From Olsenella phocaeensis (GTDB taxonomy: Bacteria; Actinomycetota; Coriobacteriia; Coriobacteriales; Atopobiaceae), in contig NZ_LT635494.1 in assembly GCF_900120385.1 (NCBI RefSeq), positions 1,599,606-1,647,265 of the forward strand: DNA of 47,660 nucleotides. Direction: 5' to 3'. The position numbers were made by a program, and so were the translations under genes. The notes below the pieces were generated by a model. That model did not search any database. It worked only from the letters and a program-made list of their open reading frames with translations, and was not told where the DNA came from. Below are positions 23,829 to 46,488 of the stretch, one piece after another; positions within the stretch are counted from its first letter, which is position 1, and each line of letters opens with the position of its first letter.

Positions 23829-25016
23829 CGCCCCTCTCCCCCGCCGACGGACCAGCGGTGGTAGCCCACGACGAACTTGTCCAGGTCCCCGTCCGAGAGG
23901 ACGGAGTCCACGTTGCCCGTCTCGACCCCCGTACGCAGGTCCTTGACCAGCTGATAGGGATACAGGACGTAGCTCCTGATCTGGTTGCCGAAGCCGATCT
24001 CTCGCTTGGGGCCCCTCAGCTCCTCCAGCTCCGCATCCCGCTTCGCCTTCTCCAGCTCGTAGAGACGGCTGCGCAGGATGTTCATGGCGAAGGCCTTGTT
24101 CTGGAGCTGGCTGCGCTCGTTCTGGCAGGTCACCACGGTACCGGTGGGAAGGTGCGTGATGCGCACCGCGGAGTCGGTCGTGTTCACGCCCTGGCCGCCG
24201 TGCCCAGAAGCGTGGTAGACGTCAATGCGCAGGTCGTTGGGGTCTATGTCAACCTGGACGTCCTCGGGCAGGACGGGGAGCACCTCGACGCCGGCAAAGG
24301 TGGTCTGACGGCGCTTCTTGACGTCAGTGGGAGAGATGCGCACGAGGCGATGGACGCCCTGCTCGGCGCGAAGCATCCCATAGGCATTGGTTCCGGAGAC
24401 CGTGAAGGTCGCGCGGTCGAGGCCGATGACCTCCGCGTCGCTGACGTCGTTGAGCGTGACCTTCCATCCCCTGCGACCGCAGTACGCGAGGTACATGCGG
24501 AAGAGCATCCCGCACCAGTCCTGGGCCTCGAGTCCGCCCTGGCCAGGTGTCACCGTGACGATGGCGTCGCCATGGTCGAGCTCGTCAGTGAACCAGCTCG
24601 AGAGCTCGAGCTCGGACAGGTCGGCCTCGAGGGAGTCCCTGAGGCTCGCGGCCTCCTCGAACAGCTCGTCCTCGCCGGTCTCCTCGCCCAGCTCGAAGGC
24701 GGCGAGCACGTCGTCGAGGCGCTCGCGGGCGCCTGCCATGCGGTCGATGTCGTCACGCAGCCGCGTGAGCGAAGGCGGCGAGCACGTCGTCGAGGCGCTC
24801 GCGGGCGCCTGCCATGCGGTCGATGTCGTCACGCAGCCGCGTGAGGCGCGTCATGGTGCCGCCCGCCCCATCCGCGTCGTCCCAGAACCCGGGCTCCGCG
24901 CTCCTCTTCTGGAGCTCGTCGGCCTCGGCCCGCTTCTGATCGAGGTGGAGGTAGCCTTCCACCTCGTCAAGCCTGGCGGAGAGCCCTTCTATGTCGGCAC
25001 GCGTAAGGTCCGCCAT
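23825..25016 (-). pseudogene. prfB: Peptide chain release factor 2, interrupted by a 76-bp tandem duplication
   Basis: The N-terminal frame runs from ATG 25016 (abutting the secA stop) through MADLTRADIEGLSARLDEVE to VLAAF, then AHAAA and a TGA at 24755-24753. The rest of RF2 is in another frame to 23825, with the catalytic YHASGHGGQGVNTTDSAVR (GGQ) and SAVRITHLPTG. The break is caused by a perfect 76-bp duplication (24694-24769 = 24770-24845). Deleting one copy gives an intact 371-aa RF2. The usual RF2 programmed frameshift near codon 25 is absent. The tripeptide loop that reads the stop codon is RISPTDVKKRRQ, SPT rather than the common SPF. RF2 is normally essential, so an assembly artefact or a very recent, reversible duplication is likely. 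Confidence 0.92.
24694..24845. repeat. Perfect 76-bp tandem duplication inside prfB
   Basis: 24694-24769 and 24770-24845 are identical base for base. The bases beyond differ (T versus G on the left side, C versus G on the right). Since 76 is not a multiple of 3, it shifts the prfB frame by one. Confidence 0.97.
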
Positions 25017-27896: not shown

Positions 27897-30881
27897 TCAT
27901 TTGCCAGGCTGGCGGTCCCCTTCTGTCTCGTCGTCGCCCCGCGATTCGAGCGCCTCGCGGAAGATCCTGTCAAACGTCGATGCGGCTTCGGCCGCTGCCC
28001 CTCCCCTGCGGCCAGAGCGGGCGTACTCGTCCCACATCTCCCGAATCTCCTCGAAGCGACCCATCATCGCCAGCGCCTTGACAAGGGCCTCCGTGGCGTC
28101 CTCGCTGCGCCCGCCCTCCTGGATTGCCGACCTGGCAAAGAGGGAGGACATGTAGGGCCTCCCCTCCCTGAGCGCCGCGGAGGCGGCGCTCACCATGGCG
28201 TCGCTATACGTCCTCCGCAGCTTTCTGGCCTGCCGCCCGTATGCCCCGGTGACGTCAGGCACCGCCCCGACGACCGCCCCGCCCCCGTAGAGCCTGCGCG
28301 CCCGCGCCGCGTGGGCCAGGAGGAAGCGATCGCTGCCCTCCTGTTCGAATACGCCGTCGAGCTCCGCCCTCAACTCGTCTATGTCAACCGAGACGAGCTC
28401 CTCGTTGAGCTCCAGGCTCCCGTTCGTCCTGTTGCTGACGAGAGGGTCCATCCCATCGTGCCGACCGCCCAGGATCGACCTGAGCGTAGACACGCACTCG
28501 TAGAGCTTTTGCATGCCACGAACGTAATCCCGGTCTCCCCAAATCGCCTCGAGGGCCTCGTGCTTTCGAAGCCTATGGCCCCTTGCCATGGCGAGGAGAC
28601 AGAGGAGCTCACCCGCATGCCTCCTGCCCAGCCGGGAGATGGGCACGGCAATCCCGTCCACGCTCACGTTGAGCCCGCCCAGCAGCCTCACGCTCGCCCT
28701 GCGCGCGGGAGGTCGATAGAACCCCGCGGCGTCGAGGGCGATCTCCCCTTCCAGATTATCGCCCCCGCATCGCTCGCCCATGCAAACGGGAGGGGTTGGA
28801 ATGGCCTCGAGTGCGCGACTCCAGCTGTCGGGAAGGCTCAGGCGCAGGGCCGCGGAAGCAGGGCCACAGCGCGTCGCGACCAAGCCTAACGCCCACAACA
28901 GCTCGCGCGGGAAGCTCTTTGACGAGAGGCCACGCATGCTCCCGACGCGCACGCGCTCGCCATGACTCGCCTTCACCAGCATCACCCCAAGCTGGTCAAG
29001 CGGCGTCAGGTCCACGATCTTTCGCTGGACTGGCGGCTTTTCGCCCATCGCTATGCGCGCGGCGAGCAGAACCAACCGGGCTGCCGAGGCGAGGTATTTC
29101 GAATTCGCGGCATCAGCAAGCTCGATTGCGCGCGTGGCGCGCACGTGCGCCCTCGAGCAAGAGTCGGCCCCCAGGTCTCCCACGGCGCCAGAGACGAGCA
29201 ACGCTGCCTCAACGAGCAGGTCCCCGTACTCTCCAGCCCGGGCGATGGCGAGCTCGAGCCCCTCTATGGATTCCCTCCTGCCCATGAGGATGCTGGCGGA
29301 GGACTCCAGCGCCTTGCGATAGATCGACAGCCTCTTAGGCGAGCAGCGCTCGATGACCTCCCGGGCCACAACGAGCTCCCCTTCCTCCTCTGCGGTGGCG
29401 GCCTCGCCCATGAGACATCTTAGAAATGAGAAGTCGAGGCACGCCAGGGCGGACGGCAAATCCTTCGGGCTTCTTCTCCTTGGCTCGTCGAGCAGCAGCG
29501 CGAATGCAGAGGTCAGCTCTCCTCCTGCGCAAAGTCCGAGCACCGTCGCATGGAGGCGCAGGAGACGTGACCACTCGTCATCGTCCGCGCTTTTCGCACA
29601 GAGAGGGCGTGACACCCTGCCAGAGAGCACGTCCCTAACGTTTCCCAGCAAGCTCACGTACCTTGTCGCGGGACCATACCCCTGCGCCAGCTCGGTACGC
29701 GCGTAGCCCATCGCGAGTCTTCCCCGCGCATACTCCGACGTGGTGCCCGATAGCTCCAGCATTGCCTGACGAGTCACCACTGCGGGCATGCAAAGGTCCT
29801 GCCCTATGGGAGTGCCGGCATTTTGAAGGCCCTCGCATTCGGCCAAGCGGCCCGACAGGATATACCCCACTCCATACGACGCCGCCAGGGCAAGGGCATC
29901 CTCGTCCACGCAGAGCCGAGCGAGCATGGCGGAGCGCACGTATTCACCTCTGCGCGCAAGCAATTCCGCACAGCTCTTACAGAGTTCGGACGCAATGGCT
30001 CCATACTCCCCTAGCACGGAAGCAAGCCCAGGGAAAATCTCCTGGTCATCCGCTCCAACAACAGAGAATCCGTCGGCCACAAAGTCGATTCCCAGCGCAG
30101 GAGCGCACTCATGCATCCAAAGGAGGGTCTCGCCATCAGGTCGCAGCCCCAGTTCACCAAGGTCGTCAAAGCTGCCTCTACCAAGGAGGATCATCGCAAG
30201 ACGAAGCATAAGATCCTCGTCGGACAGGCTCGATCGTAAGTGCGAGATGATCAGGCGCTTGAGCGCGTCAAGATATCTAACAGATGAGAATCGCCCCTCC
30301 AGCAGACCTCCAGACACAAGAGCGGCACAAAGGGAGGGCACACCATGCGACAGGTGCAACGCCTGGTCCTCGTCGGGGAATTCGCTAAAGTCGCGGATGC
30401 AAAGATCCTGGCCAGTGAACCTGATGGCGTCATCCAAGCTCTCGAACAAGACCGCCGAATCAGGACTGATGGTCATCGCCACCAGCGCTCCGGCACCTAG
30501 CATCTTGCGTATGGCACGGAGCTCGCGACCCACGTCCGACTCGTCTCCGGGAGGCACGCCCTCAAGGAGCACGGCCACTCGTTTGCCGGCCCTGCGGGAG
30601 GCAACGACCTCGCGGGCAATGCGAACGATTCTCCCCGGCGCCGAACTGGCGTCCTCTGGCACGAAAAGCGAGTATTTGACGCAAGAGCCCGCGCGGGTCT
30701 CAATGGACAGAATTGACTTGAGAAGTCTCGTCTTTCCCATTCCGCACTCAGAACAAAACACGACGCAACGAGCCTCGTCGTCACTGCGTCGTCTGCATGA
30801 GCGCAGTAAGTCCTTACGCAGAAAGGAATCCCAAATCGCATCCTGAGAAGAACTGGCTGGCAGCATCTTGTCATTCACCAC
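27897..30881 (-). CDS. Large ATPase/wHTH/BTAD transcriptional regulator (SARP-like)
   Basis: About 994 aa from a GTG at 30881, chosen because AGGGAG lies 7 nt upstream; the frame is open to 30923. The N-terminal ~45-200 looks like a STAND/AAA-type NTPase: CVVFCSECGMGKTRLLKSIL (Walker A variant, about 40-60) and RVAVLLEGVPPGDESDVGRE (Walker B-like). A long alpha-helical, TPR-like middle follows. A winged helix starts near residue 730 (VRLLGGLNVSVDGIAVPISR, then RLRKHEALEAIWGDRDYVRG), with a BTAD-type helical domain to about 960 (RKLRRTYSDAMVSAASAALR). AfsR-type SARPs carry wHTH-BTAD first and NTPase second; here the order is reversed. It is monocistronic. Its targets are unknown, with the adjacent repeat/kdgT region the nearest candidate. 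Confidence 0.82.
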   Translation of the reverse strand: MVNDKMLPASSSQDAIWDSFLRKDLLRSCRRRSDDEARCVVFCSECGMGKTRLLKSILSIETRAGSCVKYSLFVPEDASSAPGRIVRIAREVVASRRAGKRVAVLLEGVPPGDESDVGRELRAIRKMLGAGALVAMTISPDSAVLFESLDDAIRFTGQDLCIRDFSEFPDEDQALHLSHGVPSLCAALVSGGLLEGRFSSVRYLDALKRLIISHLRSSLSDEDLMLRLAMILLGRGSFDDLGELGLRPDGETLLWMHECAPALGIDFVADGFSVVGADDQEIFPGLASVLGEYGAIASELCKSCAELLARRGEYVRSAMLARLCVDEDALALAASYGVGYILSGRLAECEGLQNAGTPIGQDLCMPAVVTRQAMLELSGTTSEYARGRLAMGYARTELAQGYGPATRYVSLLGNVRDVLSGRVSRPLCAKSADDDEWSRLLRLHATVLGLCAGGELTSAFALLLDEPRRRSPKDLPSALACLDFSFLRCLMGEAATAEEEGELVVAREVIERCSPKRLSIYRKALESSASILMGRRESIEGLELAIARAGEYGDLLVEAALLVSGAVGDLGADSCSRAHVRATRAIELADAANSKYLASAARLVLLAARIAMGEKPPVQRKIVDLTPLDQLGVMLVKASHGERVRVGSMRGLSSKSFPRELLWALGLVATRCGPASAALRLSLPDSWSRALEAIPTPPVCMGERCGGDNLEGEIALDAAGFYRPPARRASVRLLGGLNVSVDGIAVPISRLGRRHAGELLCLLAMARGHRLRKHEALEAIWGDRDYVRGMQKLYECVSTLRSILGGRHDGMDPLVSNRTNGSLELNEELVSVDIDELRAELDGVFEQEGSDRFLLAHAARARRLYGGGAVVGAVPDVTGAYGRQARKLRRTYSDAMVSAASAALREGRPYMSSLFARSAIQEGGRSEDATEALVKALAMMGRFEEIREMWDEYARSGRRGGAAAEAASTFDRIFREALESRGDDETEGDRQPGK

Positions 30882-30923
30882 GAACTCACTCCCTAGGAAC
30901 ACGGTACAGCGAAATTTGCACAC

Positions 30924-31330
30924 CTTCTATATATGGCTTATTAGCAGGAAAAATAAAAGGCAGAGTGCGTGTCGCATGGCAAACGGTAGGTTTATGATTG
31001 ATTTATTTAAGATGCATAATGCAATTTCAAATTATTTTAAACATTCAAGCTATTAAGCATGAAACCTACGCGACGTTTAGCATAATTAGGCGAACGGCAG
31101 ATATGCCAAAAAAAATGGTTGATAAAGGTGCCAGAGTCGCAAAACACTGTCCCCTCCCCGCGCGGGCCGGGGCCCCGGAAACGCGAGGAGGGGGAGGCCC
31201 CCCGGGACCTCCCCCTCCTGTCGAATGCCCGTCGCTGGTCGGCGGCGTCCTGCTCTCCCACGGGCTTGCCCCGCAGTACCATCGGCGCTCGGGGGCCACC
31301 CGTGCGCATGCCGCGCTCCGCCCGTGCACG
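30924..31330. promoter_or_regulatory. Upstream region of the SARP-like gene, with a very GC-rich hairpin
   Basis: 30924-31130 is unusually AT-rich and probably carries the regulator's promoter (minus-strand TATATA near 30935). It holds an inverted pair GTAGGTTT (about 30984-30991) / AAACCTAC (about 31062-31069). 31186-31219 is a 12-bp perfect hairpin AGGAGGGGGAGG/CCTCCCCCTCCT with a 10-nt loop. A similar GGGGAGGCCCC...GGGACCTCCCC hairpin recurs at 37333-37358. I see no gene. Confidence 0.5.
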
Positions 31331-31590
31331 AGCGCGTCCGACGCGTCCGCCTCGCGCTCGAAAGCGTCCAACGCGTGCGATACAAACGCGAAAACGTCCA
31401 ACGCGTCTTTGAGCTCACCGCCAACTGGGCAAACGTGAGGCTCTCAGACGCGTTGGACGTACTCGGCGGAAATTCAGACGCGTTGGACGTACTCGGCGGG
31501 CATTCGGACGCATCGGACGTACCCGGCGGGCATTCGGACGCATCGGACGTACTCGGCTGCAGGCTGCACGCGTTGGACGCCATCGCGAGA
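31331..31590. repeat. Palindromically organised 30-bp-period repeat array 1
   Basis: Three 30-bp units (31331-31420) carry the element as GTCCAACGCGT-type. A 20-bp centre follows (31421-31440), holding the 18-bp core CAACTGGGCAAACGTGAG (31422-31439). Five 30-bp units (31441-31590) then carry it as ACGCGTTGGACGT. Spacing is exactly 30 bp on both sides. From the nearest left element to the core is 15 bp, and from the core to the nearest right element is 8 bp. Between elements the sequence varies. It lies 36 bp beyond the kdgT stop. The geometry fits a protein-binding array or a long stepped RNA hairpin; it is not CRISPR. Confidence 0.9.
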
Positions 31591-31625
31591 CAAAGCGCAC
31601 GTGGCGCCAGGCGAGAGTCGCCCGC

Positions 31626-32621
31626 CTACGCCGTCGCGGGCTGCTGCTCCGCTGCGTCCTCCACGTGGTAGCGCTTGTACACGTAAGCCGTGATGAGCGG
31701 TGTCAGGATGGCCGTCACGATGGCGGCTGCCGCCACCTGCGCCGTCGCCGTGGCCAGCACGGCCCCGCCGAAGCGCTCGGCGCTGACGGAGGCCATGGCC
31801 GCCGGGGTGGCCACGTTGGCACCCGCGCAGCTCGAGATGGCCGCGCCAGCCACGCCGGTACCGCCCGTCGCACGGTCGGCGGCGACGGTCACGAGCGCGC
31901 CGCCCACGGAGCAGATGACGCCCAGCAGGATGCCGGGAAGTCCCGCCTGCACGATCTGGCTCAGGGTCATCGTGGAGCCCATCGCGAAGAAGGTCAGGAT
32001 GATGATGCCGGGAAGGCCGGCCGAGAGGGTCTTCTTGAGGCTGGGGAAGCAGTTGCCCAGCACGATGCCCAGCAGGATGGGCAGCACGGCACCTAGAAGG
32101 CTCCAGCCCAAAGGCGCCTGCCCGGCGGCACCCAGCACGATCATGGTGACGGGAGGGCCGACCACCAGGGTGGTCACGGCGACGGCACCACGCTCGACCT
32201 CGGTGCCGTAGTCTCCCATGAGCCCCGCGTAGAGCGAGTTGTTCGCGCCGGAGCAGGCGGCAAGGATGACCATGGACGAGAGTCCCAGCAGGTTGTCGCC
32301 CAGAGCGAACTGCACGATGAGCGCCAGCGCCACGCAGAAGACGACCTTGGTCGCGATGATGATCGCGCCACGGACGGCGGCCTTCGGCGCTGACTCGAAC
32401 GAGATTGTGGTGCCCACCATGACCAGGAAGGCGCCGACGAGCGCGCCCGTACCTCCGGTGGTCATGGCCGTGGTGAAGCTCCCCAGGGCGAAGACCTGTG
32501 GGAAGAAGGTGTTGATGGTGCAGGCGAGGAGCAGGGGCACGAGGATGTTGGCCCCGGGGATGCGGCCGAGCATCTTGAAGAAGCCGCCGCCCTTCTCCGC
32601 CTTGGTTGTTGCCTCGGACAT
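31626..32621 (-). CDS. kdgT: 2-keto-3-deoxygluconate permease (KdgT family)
   Basis: 331 aa from the ATG at 32621 (GGGAAG site). Around ten hydrophobic helices. KdgT-typical segments are GRIPGANILVPLLLACTINT, VGTTISFESAPKAAVRGAII, CSGANNSLYAGLMGDYGTEV and AAISSCAGANVATPAAMASV. The family imports 2-keto-3-deoxygluconate with protons; these come from pectin or glycosaminoglycan uronates. It is the second gene after the dehydrogenase, with a GC hairpin in the 90-nt gap. The kdgK and kdgA genes needed next are not in the window. Confidence 0.92.
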   Translation of the reverse strand: MSEATTKAEKGGGFFKMLGRIPGANILVPLLLACTINTFFPQVFALGSFTTAMTTGGTGALVGAFLVMVGTTISFESAPKAAVRGAIIIATKVVFCVALALIVQFALGDNLLGLSSMVILAACSGANNSLYAGLMGDYGTEVERGAVAVTTLVVGPPVTMIVLGAAGQAPLGWSLLGAVLPILLGIVLGNCFPSLKKTLSAGLPGIIILTFFAMGSTMTLSQIVQAGLPGILLGVICSVGGALVTVAADRATGGTGVAGAAISSCAGANVATPAAMASVSAERFGGAVLATATAQVAAAAIVTAILTPLITAYVYKRYHVEDAAEQQPATA

Positions 32622-32656
32622 GTGCGCTTCCCTTCGGTTTGCCTGCGCATGCTTCG

Positions 32657-32680
32657 GGGCCCTGGCCGAGCCGGGCCCCA
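32657..32680 (-). other. GC-rich intercistronic hairpin (kduD-like / kdgT gap)
   Basis: GGGGCCC (32657-32663) pairs with GGGCCCC (32674-32680), continued inward by GGC/GCC past one bulged T. No T tract. Confidence 0.5.
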
Positions 32681-32711
32681 ATTGGTCGTACGACGTGACG
32701 TGCGCGGATGC

Positions 32712-33467
32712 TTACCCGTCCATCACGATTCCTCCGTCACAGTCCCCCACCTCGCCGTTGACGAAGCTCGCGAGGTCGGACGCGAAGAAGAGCACCATCT
32801 GCGCGGGCTCGGAAGGCTCGGCGGCACGGCCCAGCGGGATGATCGAGATGACCTTGTCGTGCTTGACCGGGTCCTCGCTGAGCGCGGTGGTCATGCTGGT
32901 CAGGGTGAAGGAGGGGCAGACGGCGTTGCACGAGATGCCGTACTTGCCGCCCTCCTTGGCGATGGCCTTGGTGAGACCGTTCACGCCTGCCTTGGACGAG
33001 GCGTAGGCAGCGGTGCCCAGCAGACCCCCGCCGATCTTGCCGGCCACGGACGAGACGTTGACGATACGCCCGCCGCCGTGCTCCTTGAAGTAGGGGAAGA
33101 TCGCGCTGCACATGGTGAAGGTGCCCGTGAGGTTGACGTCGATGGTGCGCTTCCACTCCGCGTCGTCGACCTCCTCGAAGGGCTTGGCCGAGATGACGCC
33201 CGCGTCATTGATCAGGATGTTGATGCCCGGGACCTCATCCAGAATCTGCGCGACGGTCGCGCGCACCGCAGCGGGGTCTCCCACGTCGAGCCGGTAGTAG
33301 TGGTTGCCCTCCCCCAGCGACGCCACGAACTCCCTGCCGCGCTGCTCGTTGAGCCCGATGACAACGACGTGGCCGCCACCCTCGACGATGCCCTTGCAGA
33401 TCTCGGCGCCGATGCCGCGGGTGCCGCCGGTGACGATCGCGGTCTTGCCCGTGAAGTCAAAAGCCAT
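32712..33467 (-). CDS. SDR-family oxidoreductase, 2-deoxy-D-gluconate 3-dehydrogenase (KduD)-like
   Basis: 251 aa classical short-chain dehydrogenase. The cofactor motif is TAIVTGGTRGIGAEICKGIV (about 9-28). INILINDAGVISAKPFEEVD has NDAG in place of the usual NNAG. The catalytic Ser lies in IVNVSSVAGKIGG and Tyr/Lys in AYASSKAGVNGLTKAIAKEG. The partner permease is KdgT, so a KduD-like role on a deoxy-keto sugar acid is the best guess; other SDR substrates are possible. GGAAGGGAG precedes the ATG. Confidence 0.82.
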   Translation of the reverse strand: MAFDFTGKTAIVTGGTRGIGAEICKGIVEGGGHVVVIGLNEQRGREFVASLGEGNHYYRLDVGDPAAVRATVAQILDEVPGINILINDAGVISAKPFEEVDDAEWKRTIDVNLTGTFTMCSAIFPYFKEHGGGRIVNVSSVAGKIGGGLLGTAAYASSKAGVNGLTKAIAKEGGKYGISCNAVCPSFTLTSMTTALSEDPVKHDKVISIIPLGRAAEPSEPAQMVLFFASDLASFVNGEVGDCDGGIVMDG

Positions 33468-33750
33468 GCCCTGCTCCCTTCCATGTCGCAGCTTGTTTGC
33501 CGCAGAGAGCTTGGACCCTTTGGAGGCTGCATTTTATTCAGATTTGTAAACTATCGAATATTGTTCATGCGAAATTTGTATTCAGATTACTGGTCCTTTA
33601 CTTCGTCCTCAAAGGTCAGCGTCCTTCTCGACAAGCACGATTCGCATGCATTCTTTTATGAGAGCCACTGCATAATTCATTCGTTCACATTTCCTACACA
33701 AGACACGCCGGCGACGCGCGACATCATGACGGATGGCTTCGAGCACCCAC
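33468..33750. promoter_or_regulatory. Promoter region of the kduD-kdgT pair with a 44-bp-spaced direct repeat
   Basis: AT-rich and gene-free. TATTCAGATT occurs at 33535-33544 and again at 33579-33588, 44 bp apart (about four helical turns), a plausible dimer or tetramer operator. TAAAAT on the minus strand around 33531-33536 could be the -10. The repeat copy nearest the gene overlaps it, which would suit a repressor. Confidence 0.45.
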
Positions 33751-33985
33751 GACGTCAAACGCGCGTCTCTCAGCAAGAAATACGTCAAACGCGTCCGAAG
33801 CACTCACGTTTGCCCAGTTGAGCAGGCGAGAAAAAACGCGTTGGACGTAGTCGGGCATTTTTCGCACGCGTTCGACGTAGTCGAGTGTTCCTTGCACGCG
33901 TTAGACGTAGTCGGACAACTCTCGCACGCGTTGGACGTCATCGGCGGAGAGACGCACGCGTTAGACGTCGTGGGTGGGCAGCGAC
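33751..33985. repeat. Palindromically organised 30-bp-period repeat array 2 (core inverted relative to array 1)
   Basis: Two 30-bp units (33751-33810) carry the element as GTCAAACGCG-type. The core follows as CTCACGTTTGCCCAGTTG (33803-33820), the exact reverse complement of the array 1 core. Five units then start at 33836, 33866, 33896, 33926 and 33956 with ACGCGTT(G/C/A)GACGT. The left gap is 8 bp and the right gap 15 bp, the mirror image of array 1, so the spacing is kept relative to core direction. Sequence in the gaps is not conserved. It lies 94 bp beyond the stop of the araB-like gene. A heptamer repeat AGTGGTG/AGTGGTA/AGTGGTG (34049-34069) lies between. Confidence 0.9.
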
Positions 33986-34078
33986 GGCAACGCGAGGCGG
34001 GCGCCGACCAACCTGCGGCCGACGCCCGTGCGTCAATCAAATCTTCAAAGTGGTGAGTGGTAAGTGGTGAGACGTGGC

Positions 34079-35686
34079 CTACGCCAGCTGCGCCTCCGCG
34101 GCCTTCTCGGCCTCGTTGGCGCGCCTGAAGTCGGCGAGCCAGGCACGGTAGCCCGCGACGTCGTCGACATCGGGCTCCAGCGTCAGCTGCTCCATGCCGG
34201 CGAACACGCGCTCGTCCAGGAAGCTCGAGAGCGACTGTCCCTCGGCCCTGTTGACCATGTACGAGGCAGCGACCGCCTGGCCCCAGGCGCCTCCCTCCCC
34301 CGCCGTCGCCATGACGGTGACGGGTGCCTCGAGCGCCGCCGCGAGCAGGCCCTGCGCCACCTTGGGCGTCTTGAAGATCCCGCCGTGCCCGTAGAGCTTG
34401 TCGATACGCACGCCCTCCTCGCGCAGGGCCTCGTTGCCCGCGGCGAGAGCCCCGAAGGCCGCCATGATGTGACAGCGCATGAAGTTGGCCACGTCGAGGC
34501 GCGCGTTCTGCCGGCGCAGGAAGAGGGGAAAGCCCGTCTGGACGCCCATGACCGTCTCGCCCGAGACGAAGGGCACGGACACCAGGCCACCCGCGTCCTT
34601 CTCGCCCTCCAGGGCCGCATTGAACAGGGTGGCGAAGATGCTGGCCTTGTCCGCCTCCTGGCCCATGACGCGCAGGAAGTCGGCGAGGAGGTCGACCCAG
34701 GCGTTGATGTCGGAGCTGCAGTTGTTGCAGTGGACCATGGCGACGGGGTCTCCCATAGGGGTGGTGACGAGGTCGATCAGCGGGTTGGAGGGGTCCTTGA
34801 GCGCGTGCTCGAGCACGACCATCGAGAAGACGGAGGTCCCAGCCGAGACGTTGCCCGTGCGCGGGGCCACCGCGTTGGTGGCGATCATGCCGGTGCCGGC
34901 GTCGCCCTCGGGCGGGCAGACGGGGCAGCCCGCCTCGAGGTCCCCGTCGTGGTCGAGGAAGCGCGCGCCCTCCTCGCTCAGGTGTCCCGCGACCTCCCCG
35001 GCAAGCATCACGCGAGGGAGAAGGTCCTCGGCCTTCCACACGACCCCCCTTTGGGCCACGAGCTCGTCGAACTTGGCCAGCATGCCCGCGTCGTAGTCCT
35101 TGGTCGCGGAGTCGATGGGGAACATGCCGGAGGCGTCGCCCACCGAGAGCACGTGCTCGCCCGTGAGCCTGCGATGCGCGTAGCCTGCCAGGGTGGTGAG
35201 GCTCGCGATGCGTCCCACGTGCTCCTCGTCGTCGAGCACGGCCTGGTAGAGGTGGCTCACGCTCCAGCGCTCGGGGATGTGGAAGCCGAAGAGGCCCGAG
35301 AGCTCACGGGCGGCGCGGGTCGTGGTTGTGTTGCGCCAGGTGCGGAAGGGCACCAGGAGCTCGCCTACGGCGTCGAAGGGCAGGTAGCCGTGCATCATGG
35401 CACTCACTCCCAGGCCCGCGACGCGGCGCAGGGTCACGCCGTAGCGTGCGAGCACGTCCGCCTTGAGCGCGGCGTAGGCGGCCGCGATGCCCTCGTCCAG
35501 CTCCTCCTGGGCGTAGGTCCAGTAGCCGTCGACCAGGGAGTTCTCCCAGTCGAAGGCGCCGATGGCGACGGGCTGGTCGTCCGCGTCGTCCAGGACGGCC
35601 TTGATGCGAGTGGACCCGTACTCGATGCCCAGGGTGCACTTCCCCGCCTCGAGCTCCTGGGCGATCTGCTGTGTGGTCTTCGTCAT
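34079..35686 (-). CDS. FGGY-family kinase, L-ribulokinase role (AraB-like)
   Basis: 535 aa. The first phosphate loop is CTLGIEYGSTRIKAVLDDAD (about 17-36), with LGVSAMMHGYLPFD and ELLVPFRTWRNTTTTRAARE after it. The C-terminal half has MIATNAVAPRTGNVSAGTSV and KLYGHGGIFKTPKVAQGLLA. It belongs to an FGGY subgroup that differs from classic E. coli or Bacillus AraB. Its position 100 nt after araA, at the end of the arabinose operon, makes L-ribulokinase the best role; xylulokinase is the alternative. GGAGGAGAC precedes the ATG. Confidence 0.82.
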   Translation of the reverse strand: MTKTTQQIAQELEAGKCTLGIEYGSTRIKAVLDDADDQPVAIGAFDWENSLVDGYWTYAQEELDEGIAAAYAALKADVLARYGVTLRRVAGLGVSAMMHGYLPFDAVGELLVPFRTWRNTTTTRAARELSGLFGFHIPERWSVSHLYQAVLDDEEHVGRIASLTTLAGYAHRRLTGEHVLSVGDASGMFPIDSATKDYDAGMLAKFDELVAQRGVVWKAEDLLPRVMLAGEVAGHLSEEGARFLDHDGDLEAGCPVCPPEGDAGTGMIATNAVAPRTGNVSAGTSVFSMVVLEHALKDPSNPLIDLVTTPMGDPVAMVHCNNCSSDINAWVDLLADFLRVMGQEADKASIFATLFNAALEGEKDAGGLVSVPFVSGETVMGVQTGFPLFLRRQNARLDVANFMRCHIMAAFGALAAGNEALREEGVRIDKLYGHGGIFKTPKVAQGLLAAALEAPVTVMATAGEGGAWGQAVAASYMVNRAEGQSLSSFLDERVFAGMEQLTLEPDVDDVAGYRAWLADFRRANEAEKAAEAQLA

Positions 35687-46335: not shown

Positions 46336-46347
46336 CACGCAGACAGT

Positions 46348-46478
46348 TTCGGGGCGGGGTGAGATTCCCCACTGGCGGTGATGGGCGCGAAGTTCGCCCG
46401 AGTCCGCGCGCCGCACAGAAAAGAGCGGCTGACCTGGTGAGATCCCAGGACCAACGGTCAAAGTCCGGATGAGAGAAA
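46348..46478 (+). promoter_or_regulatory. FMN riboswitch (RFN element)
   Basis: Classic RFN sequence blocks appear in order: CGGGGCGGGGTGAGATTCCC and ACTGGCGGTGA, then AGTCCGCG, then TGACCTGGTGAGATCCCAGG with ACCAACGG, and finally TCAAAGTCCGGATGAGAGA. It lies directly before the riboflavin transporter gene. The aptamer ends about 10 nt before the ATG and there is no obvious downstream terminator, so control is probably at translation start, shutting off ribU when FMN is high. Confidence 0.97.
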
Positions 46479-46488
46479 CGAGGCCACC

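Follow-up and report, generated by a model that had tools for sequence, protein, structure and literature searches.

Inverted Arm Sites at Fixed Distances from a Conserved Core: A Dispersed Family of Intergenic DNA Elements in Atopobiaceae

Introduction

Palindromic repeats of the REP/BIME kind have been known for decades, and their function and upkeep are still argued. The same questions are raised by a stretch of 47,660 nucleotides from Olsenella phocaeensis (contig NZ_LT635494.1, positions 1,599,606 to 1,647,265; this whole stretch is referred to here as the window), in which two arrays of short repeats are arranged in opposite orientation, each of them around the same core. What kind of element is it that keeps its distances so strictly, and what could recognise it? 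An earlier note on this DNA had seen in these constant lengths the mark of a protein-assembly site or of an RNA fold. The follow-up supports the first part of this claim but not the second, and points to docking sites for a putative protein complex rather than to an RNA. According to the reading that we consider fairly probable, both arrays belong to a family of double-stranded DNA elements that are dispersed among intergenic regions and would act as rigid nucleoprotein sites.

The Two Arrays in the Window

The coordinates that the earlier note had given for both arrays, and for their cores and arms, are correct to the base (Table 1). This also applies to the 18-bp core described as plus-oriented in array 1 and inverted in array 2: the 18-mer CAACTGGGCAAACGTGAG occupies positions 31422-31439 (+) and 33803-33820 (-), the core of array 1 being identical to that of array 2 up to 31439. 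In the family as a whole, the core is the 14-mer CAACTGGGCAAACG, and the TGAG tail of the 18-mer is not general. The arms, with 3+5 copies in array 1 and 2+5 in array 2, follow one another in steps of exactly 30 bp in every case, including the right ladder of array 1 and the five-arm side of array 2, and both arrays show the same gaps, 15 bp before and 8 bp after the core when read in its direction. Counted from the 14-mer, the innermost arms of array 1 are found at 15 bp on the left and at 12 bp on the right; in array 2, the five-arm side is the 15-bp side in core orientation. Alignment of 128 type-A units has revealed that the conserved arm comprises 18 bp, ACGCGTTGGACGTNGTCG, followed by a spacer of 12 essentially random bases. 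Each of the two arrays is located between minus-strand genes.

Table 1. Parts of the two arrays and genes adjoining them (positions in the window).
Feature	Coordinates	Strand	Details
Array 1, left ladder, three 13-bp arms	31334..31406	+	starts 31334, 31364, 31394; 30-bp steps
Array 1, core, 14-mer CAACTGGGCAAACG	31422..31435	+	
Array 1, right ladder, five inverted arms	31448..31580	-	starts 31448, 31478, 31508, 31538, 31568
KdgT-type 2-keto-3-deoxygluconate permease gene	31626-32681	-	array 1 lies downstream of the gene
Short-chain dehydrogenase gene	32712-33467		between the arrays, together with the permease gene
Array 2, two arms	33752..33794	+	starts 33752, 33782; 30-bp step; 12-bp side (core orientation)
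Array 2, core, same 14-mer CAACTGGGCAAACG	33807..33820	-	
Array 2, five inverted arms	33836..33968	-	starts 33836, 33866, 33896, 33926, 33956
FGGY carbohydrate kinase gene	34079-35686	-	array 2 lies downstream of the gene

Chance does not account for the arrays, because matches to the arm in the window amount to 25 against 3.15 expected, a number reached by none of 100 shuffles, and because the core is found 36 times with at most one mismatch on both strands of the 2.28-Mb assembly of the window (28 of the copies are exact, and some are assembly duplications, e.g., 1714797 and 1717711, beside runs of N), while the reversed core, used as a control, is found once. The two arrays hold 15 of the 25 arm matches. 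The core copy at position 421392 looks like a chance match in coding sequence.

G+C-rich hairpins are found near each array, at positions 31158-31222 and 33990-34028 of the window. They are candidates that could be the real transcription terminators of the neighbouring genes.

Arm Types and Spacing

Nearly every core copy is flanked by inverted arms, which in this genome belong mainly to type A (ACGTCCAACGCGT / ACGCGTTGGACGT) or type B (CACGCTCGAACGCAC / GTGCGTTCGAGCGTG), together with a few types restricted to a single locus. About six more arrays show type-A arms at the standard separation around a different centre, e.g., ACCTGCGGGTTT, indicating that arms and centre change separately; as these few loci keep their arms without the usual centre, the core is not indispensable. 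A second loop class, with a centre of the ACCTG[CG]GG.. type between type-A arms, has been observed at loci L194-L197 and L201.

In all 17 type-A loci, 15 bp separate the 14-mer from the innermost arm preceding it and 12 bp from the one following it, and 95 arm-to-arm steps measure exactly 30 bp, the other values being mostly two-step gaps or weak extra matches. Copies that keep the spacing, whose presence the earlier note had made the test of its reading, are thus found in this genome as well as in its relatives. Type B conforms to 15/11 in 10 of 10 loci, with steps of 30 bp (26 cases) or 31 bp (9 cases). Two other arm sequences occur in Tractidigestivibacter, where the 45 elements that bear them keep to 13/10 with hardly an exception; this spacing is seen in 17/17 loci for the class I arms (AGCTCCTTTTCTTAA), while the distance of the class II arms (TTCTTTAGCGG...GAGAAT) is constant in 27/28 cases on the left and in 28/28 on the right. 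The genome G079 combines 13/10 with a third, unrelated arm. Between genera, it is the sequence of the arms that changes and the geometry that is kept.

Some genomes depart from these values. In G089, the arms fall into three families, with spacings of about 41/38, 37/34, and 35/62; the third can be explained as the expected 35/32 with one extra step of 30. The genomes of the Olsenella profusa type (G006/G036) use one arm motif at both 15/12 and 16/22, one turn apart; in G016, the hairpins are short and their arms adjoin the core without a gap. A single symmetry axis, located in the core within 1 bp, is common to 47 of the 66 strong non-redundant loci. Most of the rare alternative axes are shifted by roughly 10, 20, or 30 bp, in keeping with turns of the DNA helix: eight loci show a shift of +10, three of -11, one of +20, and four of -30. 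When the phase of these axes was compared with uniform offsets, none of 20,000 draws gave an equal value, and this was also the case when each arm family contributed a single value; the list of families for this test was made by hand, and three to four loci do not fit.

The flanks of class II elements (L276-L278, L312-L351) are often rich in pyrimidines on the left and in purines on the right, and prolong the inverted symmetry.

Distribution among Genomes

Of 140 Atopobiaceae genomes, 60 carry the exact core, in numbers ranging from 1 to 51 copies, and 80 lack it, so that its carriage is patchy. Outside this family, the core is near chance level: a single match was obtained in each of 8 among 257 genomes from the other families of the order. 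Most of these matches are plausibly due to chance, and one of the eight genomes, G046, has true inverted arms. In a 17-mer scan of species-representative genomes, with strong inverted flanks defined by a score of at least 12.5, all the matches with such flanks among those listed came from Olsenella, Tractidigestivibacter, and their relatives, which places the element family in Atopobiaceae.

No published description of this repeat was found for Olsenella, Atopobium, or Coriobacteria, in a literature search that was thin on subscription papers. The family is apparently undescribed so far, and it would be the first such element reported for Coriobacteriia, as far as could be found.

Inheritance and Signs of Mobility

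Several features of the family are reminiscent of mobile DNA. The Tractidigestivibacter element is about 85-95 bp long and has sharp ends, and a 3-kb query containing two elements yields 9 to 51 matches per genome of this genus, a figure that also counts matches to the flanking genes. A comparison of one orthologous site across seven species showed the element in five of them and no element in two; four of the five have the core in the opposite orientation to the remaining one. In the genome of the window, small gene modules at L036 and L040/L041 (G000:C1, about 1000675-1001770 and 1433677-1435421), namely an MNT/HepT toxin-antitoxin-like pair (nucleotidyltransferase/HepT) and a winged-helix/DUF559-like gene, are framed by pairs of near-identical elements in inverted orientation.

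These multi-copy families with sharp ends, unoccupied sites, inverted centres, and paired elements around genes, together with arms that are homogenised in each genome, would suit a MITE-like or defective DNA transposon moved by a DDE or a tyrosine/serine recombinase, with the arms as its end-binding arrays and any host function being secondary. Nevertheless, we regard this explanation as unlikely. No target-site duplication was seen at the Tractidigestivibacter orthologous sites compared, and none could be defined. Of the G143 elements sampled, 7/11 are at the same place in G140, indicating that the elements are mostly inherited vertically. Moreover, a conserved centre between inward-pointing arrays differs from the layout of transposon ends, and no partner gene has been found. 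The winged-helix/DUF559-like gene, which is flanked by elements at two loci, was discarded as such a partner because full-length paralogues exist without elements; this gene has no Pfam or NCBIfam name, and the label DUF559-like is a tentative one, read from its sequence.

A phage or plasmid origin was also rejected, as no match was found, including in a phage collection and viral contigs. In attP sites of the phage type, a core site is flanked by arm-type sites for the integrase, and the elements described here resemble them in the central core, the arrays of arm sites, and the helical phasing. They differ in that there are tens of copies per chromosome, the core is asymmetric and lacks inverted core-type sites, and phage sequences provide no match.

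Y1 Transposases and REPINs

REPINs are doublets of inverted repeats, about 70-110 bp long and scattered through extragenic DNA, with ends more conserved than the spacer, compensatory changes, and a link to RAYT genes (PMC3116915). The elements of Atopobiaceae are likewise inverted doublets dispersed in extragenic space, so a single-strand hairpin copied in trans by a Y1 transposase (RAYT or IS200-type) acting on single-stranded DNA has to be considered. The size and sharp ends of the Tractidigestivibacter elements, their number per genome, and the orthologous sites without element agree with this explanation, as does the distribution of Y1 transposases. They are encoded in 95 of 140 Atopobiaceae genomes, and are commoner in carriers of the core (50/60) than in non-carriers (45/80; p 0.0009), an association that is confounded by phylogeny and genome size.

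A REPIN-type origin seems quite improbable, however. Ten carriers have no Y1 match, including G144, with 18 copies. The longer Y1 transposases are RAYT-like, and several of them are bounded by a palindrome of their own, e.g., TGAGACAAAGGGAC/GTCCCTTTGTCTCA, rather than by core elements, for which reason Y1/RAYT proteins were rejected as partners; the arm motifs searched for are absent from the RAYT loci, except for one weak match far from the gene (L306). A Y1 gene located about 250 bp from one element (G000:C1:1389483-1389839) is probably a coincidence. Contrary to REPINs, it is the centre that is conserved across genera, while the ends differ. The compensatory changes also fail, as neither type A nor class II shows covariation between the arms, class I being a partial exception among the types tested. 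Finally, a REPIN provides no role for the 30-bp ladder or the helical offsets.

RAYT-like transposases of Coriobacteriia with a C-terminal helix of the GLSIRQIERLTGIGR type were observed at L296, L297, L300, L302, and L311 (regions of G028, G139, G142, G011, and G013), with their own REP-like palindromes.

Sequence Motif or Base Pairing

If the inverted arms formed a hairpin, changes in one of them would be expected to be compensated in its partner at the same locus. This has not been observed for type A, in which left and right units match equally within and between loci (arms 1 and 2: z -0.8 and -2.0), as do the spacers (z -0.6 and 1.3). Covariation is likewise lacking in class II arms (z 1.1), in which a mismatch is even maintained consistently. 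Only class I arms exhibit some covariation (z 4.6), which counts against a pure motif reading. The check for compensatory changes proposed in the earlier note has turned out negative for type A and class II, with class I as an exception. Mismatches show no G.U bias (G.U versus A.C 182:165, p 0.39, over 130 loci), and no pairing was detected in the gaps between arms and core (z 0.8). According to the covariation, G.U, and gap tests, what has been conserved is a set of motifs on double-stranded DNA whose mutual distances are fixed. In other genera, many of the isolated copies possess inverted arms that are long, near-perfect, and locus-specific, resembling hairpins in this respect. The term palindromic, applied to the module, describes the layout of its sites correctly, but should not be taken to mean that a hairpin has been selected.

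Regarding the genomic context, genes were predicted with a codon-usage caller seeded with the genes of the window, which is crude but recovers known genes. By these predictions, 93 of 96 elements are intergenic; the flanking genes are convergent in 23 cases, tandem in 52, and divergent in 8. The elements favour the 3' ends of genes and avoid their starts, with median distances of 169 bp to 3' ends versus 308 bp to 5' ends, and with the nearest gene start more than 86 bp away from any element. At the sites between tandem genes, the core lies on the same strand as the genes in 27 cases and on the opposite one in 25. This random orientation, together with the intergenic context, makes a signal that works in one direction, such as a terminator, a leader, or a riboswitch, unlikely.

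A structured non-coding RNA, or a 3'-UTR or terminator hairpin with the core as its apical loop, was first suggested by predictions in which many copies fold very stably and place the core at the apex, and would fit the location near gene 3' ends, but it is highly improbable given the results of the mismatch, gap-pairing, and covariation tests, the absence of locus-specific complementarity in 17 type-A loci, a spacing that is rigid without pairing, the random core strand, and the lack of any Rfam family at the gathering cut-off for the element.

A peptide repeat was discarded too: although the 30-bp period translates into repeats of 10 residues in several frames, the arms are oriented in both directions and the loci are intergenic. 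The layout is not that of a CRISPR either, since the repeats invert about the core, and an 18-bp repeat alternates with a random spacer of 12 bp.

Proposed Model and Closest Known Systems

It is the geometry of these elements that suggests protein binding. In the nucleoprotein site proposed here, the asymmetric core of about 14 bp, conserved between inverted arms, would be the putative docking centre, recognised by one protein common to the whole family. The arms, which in this genome form ladders of 18-bp sites every 30 bp (about three helical turns), all of them oriented toward the core, may be bound on one face of the helix by a second protein or domain of faster-changing specificity. Contact between this arm-bound protein and the core complex would generate a rigid nucleoprotein node able to work in either orientation. 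Copies have probably been spread by past transposition in trans.

The closest working analogue is BIME-1 from Escherichia coli, in which two inverted REPs surround an inter-REP segment bound by IHF (PMC2817692). Both kinds of elements are dispersed, extragenic, and present in many copies, with inverted repeats around a central segment, which in BIME-1 is recognised by a protein. In contrast to BIME-1, the conservation of the centre here spans a bacterial family, while arms from different genera are unrelated and can form ladders at exactly 30 bp; no homology to REP sequences was seen, and the arms are not known REPs. As a class, BIMEs comprise two or more REPs in alternating orientation around a protein-binding segment, with IHF bound at the centre or gyrase bound by the element. 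The earlier statement that no named repeat class has this layout holds as far as has been checked, BIME-1 being the nearest one. By analogy with BIME-1, the likeliest job of the elements would be architectural, such as bending, supercoil handling, or insulation at the ends of transcription units. The patchy carriage, with 80/140 genomes lacking the element, argues against an essential architectural role.

The CGTC-tagged REP families, with stems of 8-9 bp and loops of 4-5 bp, have been described in Proteobacteria and four other phyla, in a paper that does not mention Coriobacteriia (PMC3733652). They are also interspersed palindromes without an associated transposase gene, and type-A arms happen to contain CGTC, but neither a conserved 14-bp centre nor a 30-bp ladder is known to be part of their description (PMC3733652).

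As a more tentative proposal, which is possible rather than expected, the specificity for the core may have been frozen while that for the arms has been repeatedly replaced under a constant helical geometry. If this is true, a conserved core-binding protein docks with arm-binding partners of rapidly changing specificity. The family represents a natural experiment in which the core and the kind of spacing are kept and the flanking recognition sequence is swapped between genera.

Other Features of the Window

Adjoining array 1, positions 27897-30923 (-) of the window encode a protein of 1008 residues with no Pfam or NCBIfam match, which resembles an ATPase regulator and seems to end in a SARP/BTAD-like domain. 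The 5' part of a prfB-like release factor gene contains a perfect tandem duplication of 76 bp (24694-24845), a length not divisible by three. The duplication may be an assembly artefact, or it may disrupt the gene in its start region. An FMN riboswitch (RF00050, 98 bits) is found on the plus strand at positions 46341-46484.
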